A stretch of 64,000 nucleotides of DNA from positions 1 to 64,000 of the forward strand of contig JAFRHL010000022.1 of assembly GCA_017433295.1 (NCBI GenBank), in the 5' to 3' direction. The position numbers and the translations under genes are program-made. The notes below the pieces were generated by a model. That model did no database searches. It worked only from the letters and a program-made list of their open reading frames with translations, and was not told where the DNA came from. The stretch comes from Eubacterium sp. Lineage in GTDB: Bacteria > Bacillota > Clostridia > Lachnospirales > Lachnospiraceae. Positions 28,610-34,882 of the stretch are shown piece after piece. The stretch's first letter is position 1. Every line of letters begins with the position of its first letter.

Positions 28610-28642
28610 AAAAAGTGAACGTCGAGATGACGTTCACTTTTT
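28610..28642. terminator. Bidirectional terminator between the cyclase and GntR genes
   Basis: AAAAAGTGAACGTC (28610-28623) and GACGTTCACTTTTT (28629-28642) form a 14-bp stem with a 5-base loop and T/A-rich flanks on both strands. It serves the two convergent genes; the regulator's last codons lie inside it. Confidence 0.88.
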
Positions 28643-29293
28643 TATGAGCTTCAGATTAATCTTCTGGGCAATATCAAGATGATATTTGATCAGTTCCTCC
28701 AGTTCGGAAAGCTTCTGTTCCTTCACCATCCAGAGAATCTGCCGGTGTTCCTTTACAGTTTCTTCCATCCGCCCTTCCTGGAGAAAGGAAGTGGCTGTCT
28801 GCCAGAAGATCCGGTACATAAAGCGCCGGTAGATTTCAAGCATGGATGCGTTGCCCACAAACTGGACAACACTTCGATGGAATTCATAATCCTTTCGGGC
28901 AAAATCTTCATTGTTGTGACTTGTGGCTATGATTCCTTCCTGACTGTTTACCTTTCCGGACAGCTTGGTATAATATTCCTGCCCTCTCTCTGTATCCAGA
29001 TGGATAGAAAGCTCTTTGAAGCAGTAGGTTTCCAGGGCGAATCGAAGCTGATATGTCTCAATGATATCTTCCTGTGTCATCTTATGCAGGGTAAAACCCT
29101 TACTGGGGAAAATATCTATATACCGTTCCTGCTCCAGCCGGAGTACAGCATCCCGGAAGGGCGTACGCGACACACCGGCTTCCCGGGCCATTTTGTTAAG
29201 AGAATAGTATTCTCCCTCCGTTAACTTTCCGTCTTTTATCAACCCGATCAGATGATCATATGCAATTGATTGAAGCATTTGTGTTTCTTTCAT
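28634..29293 (-). CDS. GntR-family transcriptional regulator (FCD/FadR subfamily)
   Basis: 219 residues. An N-terminal winged helix-turn-helix (LTEGEYYSLNKMAREAGVSR and TPFRDAVLRLEQERYIDIFP) is followed by an all-helical FCD effector domain (from about 75). The FCD part contains ETYCFKELSIHL, HNNEDFARKDYEFHRSVVQF and a C-terminal VKEHRQILWMV, which carry the family's metal or ligand-binding Asp/His residues. It is convergent with the acid-sugar genes and probably controls them through TATACCGGTATA or similar sites, responding to a sugar acid. Site GGGAG before ATG. Confidence 0.9.
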   Translation of the reverse strand: MKETQMLQSIAYDHLIGLIKDGKLTEGEYYSLNKMAREAGVSRTPFRDAVLRLEQERYIDIFPSKGFTLHKMTQEDIIETYQLRFALETYCFKELSIHLDTERGQEYYTKLSGKVNSQEGIIATSHNNEDFARKDYEFHRSVVQFVGNASMLEIYRRFMYRIFWQTATSFLQEGRMEETVKEHRQILWMVKEQKLSELEELIKYHLDIAQKINLKLIKK

Positions 29294-29326
29294 GATAGTA
29301 AAACTCCCGGCCAGACCTGTGTTGAA

Positions 29327-29372
29327 ATGATAATCATAATATATTTTACCTTATCACTGAAAAAGTTGTCAA
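29327..29372 (-). promoter_or_regulatory. Promoter and ATGATAATCAT operator of the GntR-family gene
   Basis: On the minus strand TTGACA (29367-29372) and TAAAAT (29343-29348) are 18 bases apart. Just downstream lies ATGATAATCAT (29327-29337), a perfect 5-bp inverted repeat around one base and a likely autoregulatory site. Confidence 0.6.
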
Positions 29373-29564
29373 TCATCAATATTCTGCTTTTTGGTAAGAC
29401 GATCCCAATCCTGATCCGGCTGAATGCGTATTAACCGAAATCACCATTCACGAAAAACATGCCTCTGTGATTGAAAACAATACACACAACTTAACTACAA
29501 TTTCCGATAAAAGTATAAGAAATAAATAATATTCTGAATATATACTTTTTATTAAAATAATAAT

Positions 29565-29593
29565 TGACAAAAAGGAGGTAATGGTGTAGTATA
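29565..29593 (+). promoter_or_regulatory. Promoter of the candidate structured RNA
   Basis: A perfect TTGACA (29565-29570) is followed after 17 bases by TAGTAT (29588-29593, four of six consensus) within a TATA-rich run. No coding sequence follows for 600 bases. Confidence 0.55.
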
Positions 29594-29599
29594 TAGATA

Positions 29600-30087
29600 A
29601 TAAAAGAAACGAAGAACTAAAAGAAGAAAAAAAGATGTATCCGGATATAATTGCACATCAGTTTAGGAGATTCGATTCTTGGAAATAAGGAGGACGGTCC
29701 GATGGGAACTTAAAGCAATAGATTCATATTCTGCATATGACAGGTTCTTAACAGGAGGTTATGAAGTGAAACTTCAGATTATTTGAGGGAGTGGTTTCGT
29801 TCCATAATTCGGTGGAGATCTGAACAAAGTATGATTCAGACAAAGTAAGAATCAGTTTTAACGGACGGAATGGAATCACGGTAAATAAAGAATTATTTAA
29901 CAGTAGCAGAAGCTATAAAAATAGATATCAAAATTTCTGAATGACGGACCGTTGGGACGTTAAGTGATAGATATTAAAGGTTAATAATTCAAAATCTATG
30001 AAAGCGAAGGTGTATTAAATGAAATTAAAGGAAATTCATTTATAAGCACTACCTGATATGATAAATAAATCAGGTAGTGCTTTTTTT
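29600..30087 (+). ncRNA. Candidate large structured noncoding RNA (about 490 nt)
   Basis: No ORF longer than a few codons exists here, yet the region is bounded by a TTGACA promoter and a 14-bp-stem terminator. Hairpins read by eye: TCATAT/ATATGA (29724-29740), TGAAGT-GAA-ACTTCA (29762-29776), TGATTC/GAATCA (29832-29854), TATTAA-AGG-TTAATA nested in ATAGAT/ATCTAT (about 29965-29999) and AAATGAA/TTCATTT (about 30018-30041). GACGGTCCGATGGGAACTTAA (29693-29713) recurs as GACGGACCGTTGGGACGTTAA (29943-29963), 17 of 21 identical. ACGGTCCG (29694-29701) can also pair perfectly with CGGACCGT (29945-29952), closing a 250-nt domain. Three AGGAGG motifs are each followed by an ATG and a stop within three codons. 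Size and style recall large Firmicute RNAs such as OLE, ROOL or GOLLD, but I cannot assign it to any of them. Confidence 0.6.
30044..30087 (+). terminator. Strong intrinsic terminator of the candidate RNA
   Basis: AAGCACTACCTGAT (30044-30057) pairs with ATCAGGTAGTGCTT (30069-30082), a 14-bp perfect stem, with a run of seven T residues (30081-30087). No protein gene ends before it on this strand. Confidence 0.92.
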
Positions 30088-30206
30088 GATTTGGGCGAAG
30101 CATTTCTCCTTTACATTCAGCCGGAAGCAAAATATAATAGACCTGATTAATTCAGGCAGTTTAAAGTGATGCCTTTTCCTGCCTTGTATAATGATAGGAG
30201 TTAAAA

Positions 30207-31445
30207 ATGACAGAAAAGGAAAAAAGAGACCTGGGAATGCTGTATCTGGCCAGCCGGGATGATGAATTATGTAAAGAATATATAAAAGCCAAAGATCTTT
30301 GCTTTGAATACAATATGACTCGTCCTTCGGATAAGGGGAGGAAGGCAGAGCTTCTGGAAAGAATCCTGGGAAAAATGGGAGATAACTGTTTTATAGTGTC
30401 TCCTTTCTGGTGTGATTACGGTTATAATATTGAGGTAGGGGATAACTGCTGGATAAACCATAATTGTGTGATCCTCGATTGTGCGAAAGTAACTTTCGGT
30501 GACAATGTCTTTATCGGGCCGGACTGCGGTTTTTACACAGCGGGTCATCCTGTTGACACAGCCAGGAGAAATGCCGGTCTGGAGTTTGCCCACCCCATTA
30601 CCGTGGGAGATAATGTATGGATCGGCGGGGGAGTCCGGGTCATGCCCGGCATAAGCATCGGCAATCATTCGGTGATCGGAGGCGGCAGCACAGTGGTTTC
30701 TGATATTCCTGCCGGAGTGATAGCGGCGGGAAATCCCTGCCGGGTGATCCGGGAACTGACAGAAGAGGAAATACAAACAAAGCTGGCTGAACAATCCGAA
30801 TCCACCGATGATAAGGAAGCTTTTGATGATACCCGGCTGGGTAATCCCAGAAAACCCGAGGGAGAAGCCGGGGCCATGATGCTGGCCCGCATGAATGAAA
30901 GCCATGGCCCGGTTACAGACTGGGCACTCTCATTTCTGAATCCGGAAGGGGCCAGAAAGATTCTGGATATCGGTTGTGGTGGCGGTGCGACCATAGGAAG
31001 GCTTGCCGGGCTGGCCCCGGAGGCAATAATTACAGGTGTAGATTATTCACCTGTTTCAGTGCAGGAATCAAAAGAGTATAATACAGAACTGATTGCCGGA
31101 GGGCGGGCTGAGGTGGTGGAAGCATCCGTGGAGGAGCTTCCCTTTGCAGATGACACATTTGACCGTATTACAACGGTGGAGAGCTTTTACTTCTGGCCTG
31201 ATCCTGCCGAGAACCTGAAGGAGGTCCGCAGGGTCCTGAAGCCGGGAGGAAGGTTTTATCTGATTGCGGATATCTATGGAAAGGCCGGACTGGATCAGGC
31301 CATCCTTGACAACATAGATTTGTATGATTTATTTAACCCTTCAAAAGAAGAATTCCTTATCCTGTTTCGGAATGCCGGATTTATAGCCGTGAAGATCCAT
31401 GTGAAGGAAGGAACGGACTGGATCTGTGTGGAAGGAATAAAATAA
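30207..31445 (+). CDS. Fusion of a sugar O-acetyltransferase and a SAM methyltransferase
   Basis: 412 residues. Residues 1-190 are a maltose/galactoside O-acetyltransferase-type left-handed beta-helix. They include the N-terminal MLYLASRDDELCKEYIKAKD helix, hexapeptide repeats such as ITVGDNVWIGGGV, the catalytic-type TAGHPVD His, and GNPCRVIREL. After a 25-residue linker, residues about 215-412 form a class I methyltransferase with ILDIGCGGGATIGRL, TGVDYSPVSV, FDRITTVESFYFWPD and VLKPGGRFYLIAD. Both halves look intact in one frame with no stop. Site AGGAG. The fusion suggests sequential acetylation and methylation of one substrate, but that is speculation. Confidence 0.9.
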   Translation: MTEKEKRDLGMLYLASRDDELCKEYIKAKDLCFEYNMTRPSDKGRKAELLERILGKMGDNCFIVSPFWCDYGYNIEVGDNCWINHNCVILDCAKVTFGDNVFIGPDCGFYTAGHPVDTARRNAGLEFAHPITVGDNVWIGGGVRVMPGISIGNHSVIGGGSTVVSDIPAGVIAAGNPCRVIRELTEEEIQTKLAEQSESTDDKEAFDDTRLGNPRKPEGEAGAMMLARMNESHGPVTDWALSFLNPEGARKILDIGCGGGATIGRLAGLAPEAIITGVDYSPVSVQESKEYNTELIAGGRAEVVEASVEELPFADDTFDRITTVESFYFWPDPAENLKEVRRVLKPGGRFYLIADIYGKAGLDQAILDNIDLYDLFNPSKEEFLILFRNAGFIAVKIHVKEGTDWICVEGIK

Positions 31446-32615: not shown

Positions 32616-33692
32616 ATGACAAAGATAGATATTATCTCCGGTTTCCTGGGAGCCGGGAAAACAACTTTGATTAAAAAATTGCTTGAAGAGGCCCTTGCCG
32701 GACAGAAGATCGTTCTCATTGAGAACGAGTTCGGCGAGATTGGAATTGACGGTGGTTTTCTGAAGGAATCCGGGATCCAGATCAATGAAATGAATTCAGG
32801 ATGCATTTGCTGTTCCCTGGTAGGTGATTTTCATGTTGCCCTTAAGGAAGTCCTTGAAAAATTTACTCCGGACCGTATTCTGATAGAGCCTTCGGGGGTC
32901 GGCAAGCTTTCCGACGTGATCAAGGCAGTGCAGAATGTGGTCGACGATGAAACGGTTGTTCTCAACAGCCATATAACGGTTGCCGATGCCATGCGGGCAA
33001 AGATGTACCTGAAGAATTTCGGAGAGTTCTATAAGAATCAGGTGGAATTCGCCAGCGCCATCATATTAAGCCGTACCCAGAATGTGAAAGAAGACAAACT
33101 GGACAAAGTTGTTGAACTTCTTCGTGAAATAAACGATAAATCACCCATCGTTACCACACCCTGGGATGAATTAACAGGAGAACAGCTCCTTTCTGTGATG
33201 GAAGGAGAGAATGATTTTGCGGCAGAGCTTCTGGAAGCCGCGCAGATATGCCCGGAATGCGGCCATCACCATCATGAGGGGGAGTGCTGTGACCATGAGC
33301 ATCATCACCATGCTCATGAGGACCACGAGCATCATCATGAGCATCATCACGATCATGAGGAACATGGCCATCACCATCACCATCATCACGGCCATGACCA
33401 TCACCATGCAGATGAGATATTTACCAGTTGGGGCAGGGAAACTCCCAGGAAGTACTCAGAAGAAAAAATCCGGCAGATCCTTTCTGTTCTTGCAAAGGAA
33501 GAGGATAATGAGTATGGTGTGATTTTAAGAGCCAAGGGAATTGTACCGGAAGAGAATGGTAAATGGATCCATTTTGACCTGGTTCCCGGGGAGGAAGAGC
33601 TGCGATACGGTACTGCCGATTATACCGGAAGGATCTGTGTTATCGGCGCGGAACTTAAGGAAGATAAACTGGCAGAGCTTTTTGGACTTTAA
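32616..33692 (+). CDS. CobW/YciC-type G3E GTPase with His-rich metal-binding insert
   Basis: 358 residues. Walker A is ISGFLGAGKTTLIKKLL; ENEFGEIGIDGG and the metal motif SGCICCSLVG (Cys-x-Cys-Cys) follow, and then ILIEPSGVGKLSDV. Residues about 215-270 form an extreme His/Asp/Glu-rich stretch with over 30 histidines, including HHHHHHHGHDHHH. A CobW C-terminal domain (from about 280) closes the protein. G3E GTPases load Zn, Co or Ni onto target proteins; the His-rich insert suggests a metal store or sensor, most likely zinc. Site AGGAGG, preceded by the hairpin at 32542. It is followed after 21 bases by a second G3E GTPase. Confidence 0.92.
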   Translation: MTKIDIISGFLGAGKTTLIKKLLEEALAGQKIVLIENEFGEIGIDGGFLKESGIQINEMNSGCICCSLVGDFHVALKEVLEKFTPDRILIEPSGVGKLSDVIKAVQNVVDDETVVLNSHITVADAMRAKMYLKNFGEFYKNQVEFASAIILSRTQNVKEDKLDKVVELLREINDKSPIVTTPWDELTGEQLLSVMEGENDFAAELLEAAQICPECGHHHHEGECCDHEHHHHAHEDHEHHHEHHHDHEEHGHHHHHHHGHDHHHADEIFTSWGRETPRKYSEEKIRQILSVLAKEEDNEYGVILRAKGIVPEENGKWIHFDLVPGEEELRYGTADYTGRICVIGAELKEDKLAELFGL

Positions 33693-33713
33693 AGGATTGC
33701 TGAGGGGATAGAA

Positions 33714-34694
33714 ATGCCTGGAAAAAAGAAACTGGAAATACCTGTATATCTGTTTCTGGGGTTCCTGGAGAGCGGGAAAACAACGTTTATTCAGGATACT
33801 TTGGAGGAAGATTATTTTAATGACGGACAGAGGACTCTACTATTTGCCTGCGAAGAAGGGCTTACCGAGTATGATGAAGATCTGATGAAGGCTTCCAATA
33901 CCACATTGATCCAAGTGGAGGACGAGGAAGAATTTACTGCGGATTTCATTACCGGAAAAGTCATCCAGTACTATCCTGACCGGGTGATCATAGAATATAA
34001 TGGTATGTGGATGGTCAACCGGCTGTTTGAAACTCTGGAGGATACTCCCCTCCTGGTATTCCAGACCATTATGACCGTAAATGCTGAGACCTTTGACTTA
34101 TATATGAACAATATGCGTTCATTGGCCGTGGAAATGTTTAAGATTGCCGAGATGGTGGTGATCAACCGCTGCCGTGAAGAGTCTCCCCGGGCCACATGGC
34201 GCAGGAGTATAAAAGCTGTAAACCGGCGGGCCCAGGTTATGTTTGATTTCGCGGATGATGTGGAGGAGATCGGTGATGAGGACCCGGATGCTGCTCTGCC
34301 CTATGATCTGGAGTCCGACGAGATCGTGCTGGAAGACGAAGACTATGGTATCTGGTTTGTGGATATCATGGAACGGCCGGAAGCTTATGCCGGAAAGACC
34401 ATTACCATGAAGGCTCACATTTTCAAGTCCATCCGTCTGCCCAAAGGATGCTTCGTGCCGGGACGCCATGCCATGACCTGCTGCGCCGATGATATTCAGT
34501 TTATCGGTTATATTTGTCATACCAATCATGCCAAATCGTCTACCATCAAGAAGATAAAAAATCAGATGTGGGCCATGGTGACAGCAGAGATCCGCATAGA
34601 ATATAATGCGGAGTACGGTGAGGAAGGGCCTGTTCTTTATGCGAAGCGGATAGAAGCAGCAGAAAAACCTGACGAAGAGCTGGTTTACTTCTGA
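33714..34694 (+). CDS. G3E-type GTPase fused to a TIGR03943/DUF1980-like C-terminal domain
   Basis: 326 residues. The P-loop reads YLFLGFLESGKTTFIQD, then EGLTEYDEDL, VIIEYNGMWMV and VVINRCREE, a diverged CobW/G3E domain that lacks the Cys-x-Cys-Cys metal motif of its neighbour. After an acidic linker (residues about 180-215), YGIWFVDIMERPEAYAGKTI followed by PGRHAMTCCADDIQFIGYIC resembles the C-terminal part of TIGR03943 (YcgQ-type) proteins linked to zinc permeases. Pairing with the His-rich GTPase suggests a metal-homeostasis pair. Domain assignment of the tail is from pattern memory. Confidence 0.8.
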   Translation: MPGKKKLEIPVYLFLGFLESGKTTFIQDTLEEDYFNDGQRTLLFACEEGLTEYDEDLMKASNTTLIQVEDEEEFTADFITGKVIQYYPDRVIIEYNGMWMVNRLFETLEDTPLLVFQTIMTVNAETFDLYMNNMRSLAVEMFKIAEMVVINRCREESPRATWRRSIKAVNRRAQVMFDFADDVEEIGDEDPDAALPYDLESDEIVLEDEDYGIWFVDIMERPEAYAGKTITMKAHIFKSIRLPKGCFVPGRHAMTCCADDIQFIGYICHTNHAKSSTIKKIKNQMWAMVTAEIRIEYNAEYGEEGPVLYAKRIEAAEKPDEELVYF

Positions 34695-34782
34695 GATTGA
34701 GCCTCCGGCGGCAGCTGTCGGGGCGGAAACAGGCTTGTTTTCCTGAAAAAAATATGATATAGTTACGCCAGATATATAAATG

Positions 34783-34867
34783 ATCAGGGGAGCTTTGATC
34801 GAGAAGCTGAGAGTAAGGTATTCCTTAGACCCTTTGAACCTGTTGGATAATGCCAGCGCAGGAAGAT
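34783..34867 (+). promoter_or_regulatory. TPP riboswitch (THI box)
   Basis: The conserved core is visible: CAGGGGAGC at the 5' helix, AGCTGAGAGTAAGG, ACCCTTTGAACCTG, and TGGATAATGCCAGCGCAGGA at the 3' side. This is a near-consensus thiamine pyrophosphate aptamer. It is followed by a terminator at 34883, so TPP binding should stop transcription of the transporter genes. Confidence 0.95.
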
Positions 34868-34882
34868 TACAAAAACGATTTG

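Follow-up and report, generated by a model that had tools for sequence, protein, structure and literature searches.

A very probable freestanding RNA gene carrying arrays of Shine-Dalgarno sites, common to related Lachnospiraceae, that may tie up or sense ribosomes without making protein

The lambda bar minigene is one case of a two-codon open reading frame (ORF). Another is found in axe-txe, where, in the available part of the report, an AUG-X-stop ORF 5′ of the toxin gene serves as a regulatory element in cis (PMC8708949). Among peptides that arrest translation, RAPP and RGPP are given as the strongest in the accessible text of two reports, with RDPP partly permissive and HGPP also reported (PMC12992588, PMC10951233), and the first describes RAPP/RGPP uORFs as absent from many Gram-positive bacteria, including Bacillota (PMC12992588). 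The OLE RNA binds bS21 and carries an anti-Shine-Dalgarno (anti-SD) mimic within a stem, according to extracts of its description (PMC12054373). The excerpted account of RosA from Bacillus subtilis gives an RNA of ∼225 nt with a predicted σA promoter and terminator and three G-rich regions, which binds RoxS/FsrA; it also has a potential 7-amino-acid small ORF with a ribosome-profiling signal, the SD of which may be G-rich region 2 (PMC8216469).

The window analyzed here is a 64,000-nt stretch of a Eubacterium sp. contig (JAFRHL010000022.1). An earlier note made from the letters alone had proposed that it holds a large structured RNA, ROOL/OLE/GOLLD-like or of a new class, in a gene-free stretch running from a TTGACA promoter to a terminator with a 14-bp stem. 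These boundaries were upheld. No ORF of at least 60 amino acids lies between the start of gntR (29293) and that of the acetyltransferase gene (30207), TTGACA is present at 29564-29569 with a predicted transcript start near 29599, and the terminator stem is real and perfect over 14 bp (30044-30057/30069-30082). The features of the locus are as follows.

28634-29293, minus strand: gntR, flanking the RNA locus.
29528-29542, no strand given: CodY-like box AATATTCTGAATATA, with 3 mismatches to AATTTTCWGAAAATT.
29564-29592, plus strand: σA-type promoter TTGACA-N17-TAGTAT, called from sequence, with similar promoters in homologs.
29599-30087, plus strand: whole predicted RNA, about 489 nt, from promoter and terminator prediction.
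29687-29713, plus strand: module A1, AAGGAGGACGGTCCG and the micro-ORF ATGGGAACTTAA (MGT-stop), matching motif A.
29753-29786, plus strand: module D, AGGAGG then GTG...TGA, ORF at 29766-29786 (MKLQII-stop), shared with loci L009, L011, L014, and L015.
29943-29963, plus strand: degenerate second A motif, TTG GGA CGT TAA, a 17/21 repeat of A1.
29990-30045, plus strand: module E, CAAAATCTATGAAAGCGAAGGTGTATTAA and an ORF at 30019-30045 (MKLKEIHL-stop), from alignments A2/A3 and sequence model R1.
30044-30087, plus strand: intrinsic terminator, 14-bp stem and T run, overlapping the E stop codon.
30207-31445: acetyltransferase-methyltransferase fusion gene, on the other flank of the RNA locus.

The 17/21 direct repeat described previously (29693-29713 and 29943-29963) is present by reading, the repeat-family listing having omitted it; its second copy has no SD and lies off the usual spacing from module E. 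An 8-nt complement between 29694-29701 and 29945-29952, also claimed, is present in the window but is no general feature of the family, since single-copy minimal relatives carry no complementary partner (by eye, L084 has GGTCC without GGACC, and L085 has GGACC without GGTCC). Judged from sequence, the long-range pairing arises only because one motif is present twice. The AGGAGG-ATG-stop triplets, three in the earlier note, proved central to the family, with the first and third needing correction. The first AGGAGG (29573-29578) falls inside the promoter spacer and is therefore probably untranscribed, and the start kept in relatives after the third (29753-29758) is the GTG at 29766, not the ATG just 5′ of it. 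Modules A1, D, and E and the terminator are present in the window copy, together with the degenerate A, and module C and an A copy at the fixed spacing are both missing from its sequence. By this content it is a reduced or diverged family member, and the functional arguments below draw mainly on relatives.

The nucleotide search for homologs that had been suggested identified relatives with the same architecture in related genomes. Matches from a DNA search over 99 relatives were short and consistent; 12 places were fetched, and of the 10 that were read (L017 and L018 were not among them), nine had the same architecture (L016 is cut by a contig end). L019 looks like a coding region and was rejected as a homolog. 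Scanning genome contigs for the 3′-end pattern gave 19 stretches, 14 of which were read (L021, L025, L026, L027, and L033 were left out, their contigs having the same lengths as those of loci already covered), comprising 11 homologs and 3 non-homologs, the unrelated L031, L034, and L039. A stricter 3′-end pattern matched in 5 of 397 sampled Lachnospiraceae genomes with 0 control matches, and further loci were supplied by a motif search within Lachnospiraceae. Altogether, 29 RNAs (the window and 28 others) from about 24 genomes were parsed and are here called class 1. Their predicted lengths are roughly 160 to 520 nt, and in the 26 loci whose promoter was found by script, the −35 and module E are separated by 112 to 469 nt.

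A sequence model of module E (R1), built from 28 class-1 loci, matched in 26/397 Lachnospiraceae genomes at an E value of ≤0.001 and in 16/397 at ≤1e−6, with three matches in one genome and four in another. Nine loci first found with this model were tried and six could be parsed (L133, L140, and L153 could not; the remaining E-model places lay outside the sample). In all six, the stop of E falls at codon 8 or 9. A motifs are present in five of them (at the 63- to 68-nt spacing from E described below in two, the others at 59, 103, and 146), and a CodY-like box with ≤3 mismatches is present in four; L138 has an altered C-terminal half of E (MKLQEPM) with the 7-codon length kept. From these features, the six mostly appear to repeat the class-1 pattern.

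The gntR and fusion genes flanking the window copy are kept in one relative (G005), and similar neighborhoods were also seen for L029/L030 and for L024/L035. Around the other class-1 loci, the neighboring genes are found on both strands and by eye appear unrelated to one another, which argues for a freestanding gene. Several copies occur within single genomes (G003, on C31, C80, and twice on C161, plus a class-2 copy on C72; G428, on C108, C11, and C116), which suggests that duplication has enlarged the family. Its distribution is patchy, as no class-1 match was found in a complete same-genus genome. Phage and plasmid searches (six records each) gave short matches only, and two pattern scans of viral contigs gave no matches. 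Taken from these comparisons, the stretch in the window is very probably a stand-alone RNA gene common to related gut-type bacteria, and the noncoding transcript first proposed is borne out as a predicted freestanding transcription unit that contains no protein gene and has counterparts in related genomes.

At the gathering threshold, the only Rfam match in the window is a TPP riboswitch (34776-34881, 71.2 bits), which precedes genes that by eye look like thiamine-transport genes; positions 32616-34694 hold two adjacent CobW-type GTPase-like genes (by eye), one with a long histidine-rich stretch. Within 29300-30210, seven sub-threshold, chance-like matches were obtained at an E value of ≤10, and ROOL, OLE, GOLLD, and HEARO were not among them, nor were these four matched at ≤0.5 in 20 related loci. 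The Rfam comparison, which the earlier note had named as decisive for a known class, thus gave no relevant match at gathering or lax thresholds; a ROOL/OLE/GOLLD-like identity found no support in any of those models even at ≤10, and the alternative of a new class stood, as the RNA matches no Rfam family. As far as its sequence allows, class 1 is an RNA family absent from Rfam, and no description of it was found in the open-access literature, where the search likewise returned no RNA acting by ribosome docking at an array of dead-end sites.

Covariation was assessed on modules C and E and the terminator, the parts of the RNAs that the alignments covered. Compensatory changes were found in 10 of 12 pairs of the terminator stem, but in none of the C-module helix that pairs the SD (6 pairs, 0 changed on both sides in 10 sequences), so that the covariation expected of a structured RNA was obtained for the first and not for the second. 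The C alignment (A1) comprises 10 of 15 module-C loci (L011, L013, L014, L015, and L023 were left out), and its L101 row was set by hand and ends at the SD. A hairpin at the E start codon was dropped as a candidate, with 88% of cells pairing but only 1 of 8 pairs changed on both sides. An ornate structured RNA, of the ROOL/OLE/GOLLD kind or another, would fit the size, promoter, terminator, and predicted fold of the window RNA (−105.8 kcal/mol, terminator included; z-score of −3.9, with 0/100 shuffles as good). It is nonetheless very improbable given the lack of a relevant Rfam match, homolog lengths that vary several-fold, and clear compensatory changes in the terminator alone when two modules were tested; the large structured RNA of the earlier note was not supported on this last point. 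The conserved content of the family appears instead to be mostly linear, consisting of SD sites and micro-ORFs.

Two further explanations are the least probable of those considered. G-rich motifs repeated near start codons recall a CsrB-like sponge of CsrA, which was rejected since CsrA (PF02599) was found in 1 of 15 carrier genomes, several of them incomplete drafts, and not in the window genome (G000). A decayed protein gene agrees poorly with the lack of any long frame and with micro-ORF stops that are conserved in homologs.

Module A consists of AGGAGGUACRGUCCR followed by a very short frame. Counts and spacings given here refer to copies fitting one regular expression, of which there are 47 in the 29 loci, with 5 of the 29 having no match. 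ATG directly follows CCR in 27 of the 47, with a stop as the third (n = 19) or fourth (n = 8) codon, and ACA, AAA, AAG, or ATC stands in place of ATG in the other 20; an in-phase stop at the third or fourth codon is present in all 47. The micro-ORF products vary (MGT, MA, MK, MY, and others). The bare motif AGGAGGTAYRGTCCRA occurs at 53 places in 39/397 Lachnospiraceae genomes, versus 8 control matches, and outside Lachnospiraceae in 1/131 genomes, at a locus (L117) that resembles a true array. A looser pattern, GAGGNNNRGTCCRA, was not enriched (47 matches versus 74 control matches in 12 carrier genomes). By eye, most of the 30 motif loci that were read are intergenic and 3′ of a promoter. L113 seems to mark where a real gene begins, and L090, L092, L094, L107, L109, and L111 had no clear context.

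The bare motif also occurs in RNA classes other than class 1. A second class (L075, L078, L079, and L080, with L088 tentative) carries its A motifs, two or three in number, close to the 5′ end; L079 and L080 are some 500 nt long and end with AGGAGGTAAAGTCCATTGGATATGATAA ahead of the terminator, and L078 has an E-like stretch, ATGAGATTAAGGGAATTCAT, with a different frame. In a third class (L086, L089, L091, L093, and L110), a hairpin with the invariant loop TGACGAGAAAG is carried on differing stem sequences, with 3 to 9 contiguous pairs beside the loop and an A motif 5′ in four of the five, making this class a candidate for a truly structured RNA. In a fourth pattern (L107 and L108), an A motif, CCCCAGGAATATT, and GAATAGATGRAATTCG are common to two genomes.

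The predicted hybrid of window module A1 with the 16S 3′ tail has a free energy of −18.0 kcal/mol, and A copies average −16.5 kcal/mol compared with −11.5 at the best start of each of 44 long ORFs in the window. The part after GAGG contributes to this predicted pairing beyond all 300 shuffles in both groups, at −14.9 kcal/mol for ATG copies (−10.9 for shuffles) and −18.8 for ATG-less copies (−13.4 for shuffles). The ATG-less copies are predicted to pair more strongly (mean of −18.8 versus −14.9 kcal/mol; P = 1.8e−4, distinct copies), with the qualification that these shuffle and rank tests ignore the relatedness of loci, the copies being related by descent. The best-pairing variants (GATCC, and AGGAGGTGATCC without the bulge) have 0 occurrences among A copies, which counts against selection for 16S pairing alone. 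The tail sequence GGATCACCTCCTTTCT was identified in a genome of the same genus and in G048, and the draft genome to which the window belongs contains no exact match to the 15-mer of the 16S tail that was searched. Predicted SD pairing of modules C and E is of ordinary strength (means of −12.8 and −12.1 kcal/mol).

Module D (MKLQII-stop and variants) was found in the genus of the window. Module E is the most conserved, reading GAAAG-GAAGGUG-(6 to 7 nt)-AUG with 7 or 8 codons, and its stop (TAA, TAG, or TGA) falls at codon 8 or 9 in 29/29 loci. The stop lies −6 to +2 nt from the terminator stem in 28/29, the exception being L013, for which a simple finder placed the stem wrongly. An A copy is placed 63 to 68 nt 5′ of the E start codon in 20/29 loci. 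Sixteen of these fixed-position copies are ATG-less and four contain ATG, all four coming from one genome, G003 (L013, L020, L036, and L037). The last A copy is ATG-less in 16/24 cases compared with 4/23 for earlier copies (P = 0.001).

Module C encodes a six-residue peptide, and in most predicted folds its SD is paired with AUCUCU 5′ of it. When ORFs were anchored on SD strings alone, 14/14 ended in (R/H)(G/D/A)P-stop, one with His for Arg; the anchor was present in 14 of 29 loci. These features raise the alternative of a peptide or dual-function gene, in which MKGR(G/D)P and MKLxEIH would serve as signals or arrest peptides controlling RNA processing or stability, and the RNA so processed or stabilized would regulate other genes. 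The stops kept in C and E, synonymous variation at the Gly, Arg, and Pro codons of C, and a C SD held in a helix conserved without covariation are in its favor. Third-position bias in C gave P = 0.074 without codon requirements, the value of 0.0086 having come from a search expression in which part of the first and second codon positions was preset, and was not significant in E (P = 0.37), where codons 2 and 3 were fixed by the search expressions and excluded as evidence. As A micro-ORFs vary or have no start, and the C anchor is missing from all but 14 of the 29 loci, the window copy being among those without it, a peptide gene is considered unlikely.

Somewhat less likely again are STAB-SD-like roadblocks, by which the SDs would merely shield a regulatory RNA from 5′-3′ decay and the function would lie elsewhere. 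Titles cited in PMC3997798 point to stabilizer SD sites in Firmicutes and to a mini-ORF ribosome-binding site shielding mRNA. Against this, little conservation was noticed beyond the SD modules and terminator, modules C and E and the terminator being the parts aligned.

A CodY-like box with ≤3 mismatches was identified within 110 nt 5′ of the −35 in 24 of the 29 class-1 loci, compared with a mean of 1.6 and a maximum of 5 loci for shuffles. Ten loci have it 35 to 36 nt from the −35 and ten others 45 to 48 nt away; in the remaining four the distances are 17, 17, 28, and 55 nt, and in the window the distance is 36 nt. The offset between the two main groups is close to one turn of the helix, a possible sign that a phased site activates transcription instead of simply repressing it. 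A CodY gene is encoded in the window genome (G000:C43), so that both a box near the promoter and CodY itself are found at the sequence level, and CodY-type nutrient control of the class-1 RNA is probable. With L009 as the query, the two best matches in G004 were weak (E values of 0.004 and 0.012) and consisted of promoter-like sequence about 1.8 kb 5′ of 16S 3′ ends; the L009 promoter therefore resembles rRNA promoters of a same-genus genome.

All modules are SDs without a productive frame, which favors a transcript that engages ribosomes without making protein. The reading preferred here, tentatively and with a probability of roughly 0.37, is that the class-1 RNA is a ribosome-engaging decoy or parking RNA. 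We infer transcription, ribosome binding, arrest, and decoy action; the family, its modules and their spacing, the dead-end frames, and the CodY-like box are read from the DNA. Transcription from a strong promoter that probably responds to nutrients through CodY would yield an RNA of roughly 160 to 520 nt with many SD sites, at which ribosomes would meet four kinds of dead end: A sites with AUG and a stop within four codons; A sites that have no start codon but are predicted to pair over a longer stretch of the 16S 3′ tail; the short peptide ending Arg-(Gly/Asp/Ala)-Pro-stop, with its SD usually paired; and the 7- to 8-codon ORF set against the terminator. Upon a nutrient change, 30S or 70S ribosomes would be parked or titrated, or their availability reported. 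In the window, too, ribosomes may be tied up or sensed and no protein made. A decoy, a sensor of ribosome availability, and an RNA shielded by bound 30S would all fit.

The full version of this reading, a nutrient-controlled freestanding ribosome-parking RNA with the ribosome itself as target and combining 30S docking by extended 16S complementarity, start-stop minigenes, a minimal arrest peptide, and fixed spacing, is doubtful, though worth naming: it would do as an RNA what hibernation factors do, and related classes would exist across Lachnospiraceae. The odds of both the decoy and the parking readings were reduced because a single genome supplies all four fixed-position AUG copies and SD strength in C and E is only ordinary, by which the sponge and peptide-gene alternatives gained slightly. 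The decoy reading is further weakened by the common descent of the copies, the reported scarcity of RAPP/RGPP uORFs in Gram-positive bacteria, the best-pairing variants that never occur, the unenriched looser pattern, the nonsignificant third-position bias, the 5 of 29 RNAs without an A match, the absence of C and the fixed-spacing A from the window copy, and the patchiness of the family. If it is true, a transcript competing for, storing, or sensing ribosomes under nutrient control exists in members of a common gut-bacterial family.

The strongest rival to the decoy reading, itself rather unlikely, is a RosA-like sponge, in which G-rich SD-like motifs would titrate C-rich small RNAs that block mRNA SDs, the micro-ORFs being secondary. 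An own promoter, an intrinsic terminator, and several G-rich SD-like regions, one with a short ORF, are all found in the sequence, an anatomy strikingly similar to what the available account of RosA describes (PMC8216469), and nutrient-linked control is compatible with sponge and decoy alike. However, no full-motif complement was recognized among the matches read (the GAGGTA-type and one more of the 47 from the looser pattern, where the G428:C108 locus is L024, and the 30 motif loci), and a sponge would not predict the fixed A-to-E spacing or the contrast between AUG and duplex strength. Even as a small-RNA sponge, class 1 would be a new RNA family, offering a candidate arrest peptide of six residues as well as SD sites that naturally have no ATG.

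Set beside the described systems, as far as the accessible parts of their reports go, the OLE RNA is like class 1 in imitating part of the SD/anti-SD helix; OLE, a large Firmicutes RNA, carries an anti-SD mimic in a stem, whereas class 1 carries the SD side in an array. The AUG-X-stop ORF is shared with axe-txe, but in class 1 such ORFs are arrayed along an RNA that contains no protein gene. Module C resembles ApdA, ApdP, and ApcA, for which the same partial sources describe nascent chains ending with Arg-Ala/Gly/Asp-Pro (PMC12992588, PMC10951233), and its C-terminal residues match those supporting or permitting RAPP-like arrest; this candidate differs in having six residues, a stop instead of the second Pro or Gly, and no regulated gene downstream. 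Judged from sequence, the anatomy of class 1 is close to that of SD-mimic sponge RNAs, with added features not known from any of them. Like RosA as partly described, class 1 is freestanding, with a σA promoter, a terminator, and several G-rich regions that resemble SDs, one of which would serve as the SD of a short ORF (a potential one of seven residues in RosA). Unlike RosA, compared by anatomy and not by RosA sequence, it has up to four extended motif copies, AUG-X-stop minigenes, an R-(G/D/A)-P-stop ORF, a fixed A-to-E spacing, and a CodY-like box.
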